Positions 17,380-18,498 of a stretch of 64,000 nucleotides of DNA are shown here, one piece after another; positions within the stretch are counted from its first letter, which is position 1, and each line of letters starts with the position of its first letter. The translations under genes and the position numbers were made by a program. Source of the stretch: Streptomyces xanthophaeus (GTDB lineage Bacteria; Actinomycetota; Actinomycetes; Streptomycetales; Streptomycetaceae); NCBI RefSeq assembly GCF_000725805.1, contig NZ_KL647137.1:186001-250000 (forward strand), written 5' to 3'. Below the pieces are notes generated by a model that saw only the letters and a list, made by a program, of their open reading frames with translations, had not been told where the DNA came from and made no database searches.

Positions 17380-18111
17380 GTGCCGAAGCTGAATCAGATC
17401 ATCGCAGTGGAAAAGGGCGTCAAGTCCAAGTCCCTCCAAGAGCTCTCGCAGGCTCACCACGACGTCCAGAAGCCCGCCCTGCTGGCCGGCATCTCCCGGA
17501 CCTACCAGCCCAAGGACGAGGAGGGCGAGCAACTGCCCCCGGAGTCCACGCGGGTGCAGGTCAAGGCCGAGGACGTGCTGCGGGCCACGGCGGGGACGCT
17601 GACGCGGCTGTTCGACGTGACGGCCACCAAGGACTGGGCGAACCGCACGGCCTCGGCCGACGTGGTCGTCGACGGCTCCGTCCTGCTGGAGCAGGTGCCC
17701 GTGCCGTACCTGCTGTTCCTGGAGAAGCAGCTCACGGACATGCACACCTTCGTGCGGAAGCTGCCGGTGCTGGACGCCTCGGAGTCCTGGAACCTGGACC
17801 CGTCCACGGACTCCTGGAAGACGGACCCGGTCCGCACCATCCGCACGAAGAAGGTGCCGCGCAACCACGTCAAGGCCGAGGCGACCGAGAAGCACCCGGC
17901 GCAGGTCGAGGTGTACTACGAGGACGTGCCCGTCGGCTACTGGACGACGGTGAAGTTCTCCGGAGCGCTGCCCGCGCGGAGGGTGAACGAGCTCCTCGAC
18001 CGCGTCGAACGGCTCCAGCAGGCGGTCAAGTTCGCCCGCGAGGAGGCCAACAGCACCGAGGTCGACGACCAGCGGGTCGGTGACGCGGTGTTCGGCTACC
18101 TGTTCAGGTAG
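17380..18111 (+). CDS. Conserved hypothetical protein upstream of two tRNA-like RNAs
   Basis: A 243-aa soluble protein, GTG start, VPKLNQIIAVEKGVKSKSLQ at the N-terminus. It has no enzyme motif that I can identify; it is rich in charged residues with several helical stretches (RVNELLDRVERLQQAVKFAREEAN near the C-terminus). I know similar proteins from Streptomyces and, less surely, from actinobacteriophages, annotated only as hypothetical (a DUF7873-like family). It appears to be leaderless. Its neighbours are the two permuted tRNA-like RNAs at 18159 and 18306, so an RNA-related role is a reasonable but untested idea. Confidence 0.85.
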   Translation: MPKLNQIIAVEKGVKSKSLQELSQAHHDVQKPALLAGISRTYQPKDEEGEQLPPESTRVQVKAEDVLRATAGTLTRLFDVTATKDWANRTASADVVVDGSVLLEQVPVPYLLFLEKQLTDMHTFVRKLPVLDASESWNLDPSTDSWKTDPVRTIRTKKVPRNHVKAEATEKHPAQVEVYYEDVPVGYWTTVKFSGALPARRVNELLDRVERLQQAVKFAREEANSTEVDDQRVGDAVFGYLFR

Positions 18112-18122
18112 CCCCGAGATCG

Positions 18123-18142
18123 CCCCCCGTTCGAGCGGGGGG
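18123..18142 (+). terminator. Hairpin after the 17380 gene
   Basis: A 7-bp G/C stem (CCCCCCG / CGGGGGG) closes a TTCGAG loop 11 bp after the stop at 18111. It could end that transcript or be a processing point ahead of RNA A. Confidence 0.55.
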
Positions 18143-18158
18143 TGCGCGAGAGCGCAAG

Positions 18159-18291
18159 CTGAAACTGATGTTGAAGCTGAACCAGGGGTGACAGTTGGGG
18201 GTTCGAATCCCTCCCCCGGCACTGCGTGCCGGGGTGGCCCAAGCCCGGTAGAGGCGGCCCCGTCAAACTCAGATTCTCGCTCCAGTCTCAG
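18159..18291 (+). ncRNA. Circularly permuted tRNA-like RNA A
   Basis: The elements appear in permuted order. Anticodon-stem 3' strand GGGGT is at 18185-18189 and the T-arm at 18197-18213 (GGGGG, loop TTCGAAT, CCCTC). Acceptor 3' strand CCCCGGC is at 18214-18220, followed by A18221 and a CTGCGT linker. Acceptor 5' strand GCCGGGG is at 18228-18234, the D-arm at 18237-18255 (GCC / GGC with CCCGGTAG in the loop) and anticodon-stem 5' strand GCCCC at 18257-18261. Acceptor pairing is 7/7; the anticodon stem is 5/5 with one G-U. Outside them, 18269-18276 pairs with 18173-18180 (7/8) and 18283-18291 with 18159-18167 (8/9), making a long terminal stem. This is the architecture of bacterial Y RNAs (YrlA) or of a permuted pre-tRNA. 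Transcription is not shown. Confidence 0.75.
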
Positions 18292-18305
18292 TATTCGCCG
18301 CCGAA

Positions 18306-18442
18306 CACCGGATCGACCGAGCGTGGACGATCATCGACGGATGGGGGTTCAAGTCCCTCCTGCGCCTCTTCCGTGGCGCGGTAGTTCAAAGGCAGAACAC
18401 GTCGGTCTCAATATGATCCGCGGCTCTTAAACGCCGCCGGTG
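18306..18442 (+). ncRNA. Circularly permuted tRNA-like RNA B
   Basis: Same order as RNA A with a different sequence. Anticodon 3' strand CGACG is at 18335-18339 and the T-arm at 18343-18359 (loop TTCAAGT). Acceptor 3' strand CTGCGCC is at 18360-18366, followed by T and a CTTCCGT linker. Acceptor 5' strand GGCGCGG is at 18375-18381, then TA, the D-arm GTTC-AAAGGCA-GAAC at 18384-18398 and anticodon 5' strand CGTCG at 18400-18404. Acceptor pairs 7/7 (one G-U), D-stem 4/4, anticodon stem 5/5. Flanking helices are ATGATC 18413-18418 with GATCAT 18329-18334, GCTC 18423-18426 with GAGC 18319-18322, and CCGGTG 18437-18442 with CACCGG 18306-18311. An unpaired GTCTCAAT lies where the anticodon loop would be. 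A strong terminator follows. Confidence 0.75.
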
Positions 18443-18460
18443 TGCGCAATTGGGTGGCAA

Positions 18461-18498
18461 ACAGGGGCCCGGGAGCTGGACATGCTCCCGGGCCCTGT
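18461..18498. terminator. Strong bidirectional terminator hairpin
   Basis: A 15-bp stem (ACAGGGGCCCGGGAGC with GCTCCCGGGCCCTGT, one bulged G) closes a 7-nt loop. It lies 18 bp after RNA B on the plus strand and 48 bp beyond the anti-sigma gene's stop on the minus strand, so it can serve both. Confidence 0.85.

Follow-up and report, generated by a model that had tools for sequence, protein, structure and literature searches.

The window analysed here, a 64,000-nucleotide stretch of a Streptomyces xanthophaeus contig, carries an RNA element in which the two halves of a tRNA stand in reversed order, and the question that this locus raises is what kind of RNA it is and which protein it works with. 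An earlier note on the same DNA had described the element as a circularly permuted tRNA-like RNA, built either like the bacterial Y RNAs of the YrlA type or like permuted tRNA genes. The element, module A with its stem (18158-18292), is half of a larger unit, of which the second copy, module B with its stem (18305-18443), and the DUF7873 gene upstream lay outside that initial observation.

Layout of the locus

The gene at 17380-18111 (+ strand, as are all features below) encodes a 243 aa protein assigned to DUF7873 (PF25283) with 402.8 bits, the Pfam cut-off being 27, and its product is the predicted partner of the RNA. The protein is slightly acidic (33 K+R vs 36 D+E), and no significant match in the PDB was found for its AlphaFold model (pLDDT 93.8, pTM 0.68), so that a putative RNA-binding role rests on genetic linkage and on conserved motifs in the RNA stems. 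Just past the stop codon, alignment and RNAalifold place a G+C-rich hairpin (18123-18142) whose position is kept across the Streptomycetaceae. The conserved stretch behind the gene spans about 360-390 nt and holds both A and B.

In module A, the 5' strand of a long, imperfect outer stem (18158-18180) is followed by the 3' strand of an anticodon-type stem with the variable region (18185-18196), and then by the tRNA-like part (TLD-A) in the permuted order that had been claimed for it and that our analysis bears out: the T-arm with its loop TTCGAAT (18197-18213) and the acceptor 3' strand (18214-18220) come first, and the acceptor 5' strand (18228-18234) and the D-arm with its GG (18235-18255) come after, all of them supported by covariation or, for the D-arm, by comparison of the window's own sequence with tRNA D-arms, to which tRNA-Leu is nearest. 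The two acceptor strands form seven of seven pairs and enclose a 7-nt loop, ACTGCGT (18221-18227), with a discriminator-like A and without CCA; in other loci ACCA often stands at this position. The 5' strand of the anticodon-type stem (18256-18264), placed like its partner by RNAalifold and coordinates, completes five pairs (four G-C and one G-U), and the outer stem closes with its 3' strand (18268-18292), which contains a conserved TCGCTC motif. The stems thus stand as the earlier note drew them, and the pairing of the outer flanks into a long stem, 18158-18180 with 18268-18292, is confirmed by RNAalifold and by the cognate pairing test described below.

Module B follows the same plan at 18343-18398. 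Its arm starts with the 5' strand of a basal stem and a conserved GGATCGACCG motif (18305-18319), followed by the 5' strand of an upper stem together with the 3' strand of the anticodon-type stem (18319-18342). The T-arm with the loop TTCAAGT (18343-18359), the acceptor 3' strand (18360-18366), the acceptor 5' strand (18375-18381) and the D-arm (18382-18398) are all supported by covariation, and the acceptor loop TCTTCCGT (18367-18374) has a discriminator-like T and again no CCA. RNAalifold and pairing tests place the 5' strand of the anticodon-type stem and the 3' strand of the upper stem at 18397-18426, and the arm ends with a conserved CTTAAACG motif and the 3' strand of the basal stem (18426-18443). 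Behind it lies a strong inverted repeat without a T-run (18464-18495), which yielded no terminator score under the T-run rule and is a possible 3' end of the transcript.

Structure, covariation and linkage to DUF7873

A single-sequence fold was modestly better than those of shuffles (z -1.8; 9 of 200 shuffles were equally good), and the structural case therefore rests on comparison. When domains were aligned with MAFFT, standard pairs occupied 99.8% of the cells in 39 A domains (74% when shuffled, 40-54% when slid) and 99.2% in 30 B domains (67% and 39-49%, respectively), with double changes at 14 of 15 pairs in A and 15 of 16 in B. Because these domains had been chosen by a finder that demands pairing, two finder-independent tests, RNAalifold and the pairing of cognate flanks, weigh more. 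RNAalifold, run on 31 loci aligned by MAFFT without structure, recovered both permuted cloverleaves, the anticodon-type stems and the outer stem of A, in a set in which most pairs were nearly invariant and double changes were found in 17 of 83. Outer stems played no part in the selection of modules, and in 33 viral loci their flanks formed more stable pairings with the cognate partner than with partners taken from other viruses, with means of -30.4 vs -22.4 kcal/mol for A (z -10.7) and -31.0 vs -20.8 kcal/mol for B (z -13.1); the true partner was the single best one in 8/33 loci for A and 10/33 for B, with a median rank of 2. In the 37 loci with both B motifs, the parts of the B stem below and above these motifs covaried separately (z -7.9 and -13.1), and RNAalifold favours a different basal register for B, in which GGATC pairs with GATCC. 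Covariation had been proposed beforehand as the check on the element, and it was found across loci both for the tRNA helices and for the outer stems; its absence was not what was seen.

The stems also carry conserved motifs. Of 55 loci, 47 have GCTCnR behind module A, compared to 4 in the control, and 41 have TTAAAYG behind module B, compared to none in the control; RATCRA precedes B in 46, a figure that stands without a control. A search of GTDB contigs gave at least 585 matching stretches, of which the best 80 were retained. Among these best 80, the T-loop of TLD-B was present in every locus and that of TLD-A was missing in 11 with the stem retained, a plain hairpin replacing the module in most of the 11, as judged by eye. 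TLD-A can thus be lost while its stem persists, which makes the stem the core of the structure and the module a tip that can be detached.

These results bear on a reading in which the modules regulate the DUF7873 mRNA from its 3' UTR, where cuts by tRNA-processing enzymes would set the stability of the message. The modules do lie on the same strand, directly downstream of the gene, and a scan limited to the sigma-70 consensus found no promoter-like site between the two. But two separate modules with conserved stem motifs are more than a processing site requires, and the stem outlives the loss of TLD-A, which makes this reading quite improbable.

The association with DUF7873 was quantified with the motif finder in 90 non-redundant loci (31 bacterial and 59 viral or phage), obtained from 133 fetched DUF7873 loci after leaving out two with too short a downstream sequence and the near-duplicates. 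At least one module was found within 700 nt downstream of the gene in 84/90 loci (two modules in 55 and one in 29), compared to 1/90 in upstream controls, 2/90 on the reverse strand and 7/900 in shuffles. Linkage was seen in all 31 bacterial loci and in 53 of the 59 viral or phage loci, the six module-less loci all being viral. Covariance models recovered modules in four of these six (L079, L101, L102 and L105), gave doubtful ones in L133 and found no convincing module in L077.

Among 61 genomes, comprising that of the window and its relatives, 32 had DUF7873 and 30 had a DNA match to the element, all 30 falling within the 32; the covariance model of B, trained in part on these genomes, found a match beside DUF7873 in 32/32. 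Of 396 genomes sampled across the phylum, 7 had DUF7873, all seven of the same genus, and the family extends to 73 phage records and 61 IMG/VR loci. The window's protein is up to 97% identical to those of named Streptomyces among the matches listed, and the 80 genome loci (the best 80 of at least 585) fall into 31 components that share flanks. These many flanks, together with IS630 and IS5 transposase genes that come after the DUF7873 unit on one Streptomyces flavofungini plasmid (L135:5001-8211), suggest horizontal movement of the unit. In the Gordonia phages GodonK and Ziko, small and probably spurious genes are annotated over the RNA modules (L126:6003-6131 and L132:4988-5197), and one DUF7873-bearing viral contig has a tmRNA gene of its own (L092:3476-3876, 108.7 bits).

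The conserved pair of elements and its DUF7873 gene point to an undescribed RNA-protein system.

What the modules mimic and how they may act

In 53 of 55 loci the D-arm of A was nearest to tRNA-Leu when compared with a full library (leave-one-out recall 85%, false rate 4.4%), which included ARAGORN predictions in or near the element. With a strict library that drops those predictions (recall 84%, false rate 4.8%), the assignment to Leu was kept in 44/55 loci (25/33 viral and 19/22 bacterial), among them the window's own A module, and the same comparison gave no clear isotype for the D-arm of B. Of 65 A modules, 48 have an A directly after the acceptor, and of 74 B modules, 53 have a T there, singly found modules being assigned to A or B by their D-arm. 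The loci also contain 34 tRNA-Leu genes, 32 of which have A as the discriminator.

Of 139 module loops, 45 carry CCA immediately behind the discriminator, its place in precursors of permuted or two-piece tRNAs, and each of eleven other offsets has it in at most two loops. It was present in 40/90 viral and 5/49 bacterial modules (19/42 and 4/23 when only A modules are counted), in neither acceptor loop of the window, and its presence did not depend on whether tRNA genes in the vicinity encode CCA (16/33 modules at CCA-poor loci, 3/5 at CCA-encoding loci). A T at position -1 of the acceptor 5' strand was found in 56/90 viral modules, in 14/26 bacterial B modules and, without clear enrichment, in 7/23 bacterial A modules. 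The first acceptor pair was G-C in 46/55 A and 46/55 B modules, and the acceptor loops ranged from 4 to 42 nt. Judged from their sequence, the CCA offset, the T at -1 and the G-C first pair are probable marks of tRNA-precursor ends, stronger in phages than in Streptomyces.

CCA was also found in 7 of 38 Ro60-linked finder matches, some of the matches being false. In three pairs of Ro60-linked Y RNAs (L248, L249 and L258), the D-arm of one copy follows the pattern TGGCGGAA..AGACGC, which several tRNA-Leu share; given D-arms of this type, the likeness to Leu may be common to the DUF7873-linked and the Ro60-linked systems.

We propose, with a probability of about one half, that DUF7873 joins the RNA encoded downstream of it in a single Y-RNA-like ribonucleoprotein that is independent of Ro60. 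The stretch of about 360-390 nt would be transcribed, its conserved stem motifs would be bound by DUF7873, and its modules would recruit or occupy enzymes that read the acceptor-T-D half of a tRNA. With less confidence, the acceptor loop may also be opened by RNase P and tRNase Z. The product, as in two-piece tmRNA, would be a tRNA mimic in two pieces, nicked and with its CCA end free for extension or charging, and held together by the stem and DUF7873. In phages the element would keep tRNA metabolism favourable in infection, and in Streptomyces it would be a horizontally acquired copy. Counting against this proposal are the dispensability of TLD-A in 11 of the best 80 loci, the rarity of CCA in bacterial modules (5/49) and in particular its lack in both loops of the window, the unclear enrichment of T at -1 in bacterial A modules, the independence of CCA from the tRNA genes nearby, its occurrence in some Ro60-linked modules, the acidic protein with no significant PDB match, and the lack of a clear isotype for B.

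Alternatively, the modules may stay closed and unprocessed, serving as decoys or tethers for an enzyme that recognises the elbow of tRNA; PNPase, a modification enzyme and a defence nuclease that cuts tRNA would be candidates. There is a precedent in YrlA, which tethers PNPase and carries tRNA-like modifications (as described in PMC8394870); several of the element-bearing phages are large and tRNA-rich, the acceptor loops are of variable length (4-42 nt), and CCA is missing from most of those in bacteria. Closed modules would, however, leave unexplained why CCA occupies one exact offset in 45/139 modules, why T stands at -1 in viruses and why the G1-C72 pair is so frequent, and we regard this alternative as possible but rather unlikely.

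The ribonucleoprotein proposed above can be taken one step further. Leucyl-tRNA synthetase is not known to need the anticodon for charging. A phage-spread particle could have its modules opened by the RNase P and tRNase Z of the host and the CCA end of its A module charged by leucyl-tRNA synthetase; by delivering or withholding such Leu-tRNA-like ends, the particle would influence translation or weaken defences that act through tRNA, a scheme that we consider doubtful.

The DUF7873 family, which has no known function, numbers at least 7,655 homologues among the 7,999 candidates that were scored, and these results supply it with a strong, testable partner RNA. They also extend Y-RNA-like tRNA mimicry past Ro60 and into many large phages, supply permuted tRNA-like genes for bacteria, some of them with encoded CCA ends, and make the question of what permuted modules bind directly approachable.

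Relation to Y RNAs, permuted tRNA genes and two-piece tmRNA

Like YrlA (RF02553), modules A and B present a permuted T-arm, acceptor and D-arm on a long stem, and a tandem pair is sometimes present at Streptomyces Ro60 loci as well; the gene linked to A and B, unlike that of YrlA, is DUF7873 and not TROVE. YrlA was the best Rfam family for both copies in the search that the earlier note had called for, yet the scores of 23.2 and 25.6 bits were obtained at a relaxed threshold and do not reach the gathering cut-off of 69. Nothing in the window was found at Rfam cut-offs, and no Rfam family at cut-off covered the stretch in 14 diverse loci. The YrlA pair linked to Ro60 in the same genome (L063:6464-6763 = L032:293-601) also scored below the cut-off (52.3 and 35.8 bits), so the Rfam threshold misses these Streptomyces Y RNAs. 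This pair adjoins the one TROVE match of the genome, on contig 21, and the window lies on contig 19.

The motif GCGMAGG at Streptomyces Ro60-linked copies is presumably the Ro60-binding site. It was found upstream of 4/139 DUF7873-linked modules vs 24/32 Ro60-linked matches at 30 Ro60 loci, in scans that used slightly different windows and with some of the other 8 Ro60-linked matches probably false. Over the 61 genomes, 23 had both DUF7873 and TROVE, 9 DUF7873 alone, 11 TROVE alone and 18 neither (p 0.01); when class-level outgroups were removed, the co-occurrence in the 52 remaining genomes gave a p-value of 0.24. TROVE was not seen in 9 of the 32 DUF7873 genomes, in searches with a model that matches just a short stretch in genomes of this set. 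Of 50 viral records with DUF7873, fragments included, 8 had TROVE, as did 1 of the 7 phage genomes that are named. Both DUF7873 and TROVE were reported in Deinobacterium chartae, a control genome.

A and B could still be an ordinary YrlA pair that moved off its Ro60 locus and binds the Ro60 of the host in trans, with DUF7873 as an accessory. The shared permuted module on its stem, the rank of YrlA as best family, the tandem modules at Streptomyces Ro60 loci, a loose likeness by eye of the B motif CTTAAACG/ATCGACCG to the basal loop of Rfam YrlA, and the co-occurrence above expectation in 61 genomes all fit such a displaced pair. The scarcity of the Ro60-site motif, the failure to see TROVE in 9 of the genomes with DUF7873 and in 42 of the 50 viral records, fragments among them, and the fading of the co-occurrence without outgroups render it unlikely. 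The YrlA-like folding logic claimed for A is upheld, and membership in YrlA is not supported for either module, given the lack of the Ro60-site motif (135/139), the lack of Ro60 linkage and the sub-cut-off Rfam scores.

The resemblance to the permuted tRNA genes of red and green algae and of Thermofilum lies in the 3' half preceding the 5' half across a short intervening sequence, of 1-74 bp in algae and archaea according to PMC3978253; in A and B, too, the acceptor strands face a short intervening loop with the 3' half upstream of the 5' half. The table of a 2014 review has no permuted tRNA genes under Bacteria (PMC4033280). In algae and Thermofilum a complete tRNA arises via a circle, whereas A and B have a long stem in place of the anticodon loop. 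When the halves were rejoined, ARAGORN gave no isotype in 28/40 joins, and in the others the isotype depended on where the join was made. A plain permuted tRNA gene, the second reading offered for module A, is thus unsupported, because the anticodon-type stem extends into a long covarying stem; the joined halves gave no stable isotype either. True permuted tRNA genes, whose transcripts would be circularised and cut into complete decoding tRNAs, would match the gene order, the discriminator, the CCA in a third of the modules, the G1-C72 pair, the U at -1 and the loops of 4-42 nt, inside the range described for algae and archaea (PMC3978253), but the covarying outer stem that continues the anticodon-type stem and the join-dependent isotypes make them very improbable. 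Tandem tRNA-Asn genes (L222:1418-1569 and L223:1406-1558) scored 57-61 bits with the B model, since one copy's end followed by the next copy's start has the layout of a permuted tRNA, and tandem tRNA genes are accordingly a false-positive class for searches of permuted modules. Three further permuted tRNA-like matches (L228:757-833, L230:628-706 and L233:944-1025; 43-48 bits with the B model) had no tRNA genes in the stretch and no listed TROVE or DUF7873 match adjoining.

Two-piece tmRNA, which some phages have (PMC9004378), shares the gene topology of acceptor 3' half, loop and acceptor 5' half, and PMC3985003 gives RNase P and tRNase Z as the probable nucleases that cleave its precursor. 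As a candidate for the element it is not supported, the window giving neither a tRNA nor a tmRNA by ARAGORN and no tmRNA match at the Rfam cut-off. The DUF7873 locus differs in having two modules, and the partner of tmRNA is SmpB (PMC3985003), whereas the linked gene of A and B is DUF7873. If the doubtful scheme of a phage-spread particle with chargeable, nicked modules is real, it would be a third type of tRNA-mimic system, next to tmRNA-SmpB and Y RNA-Ro60.
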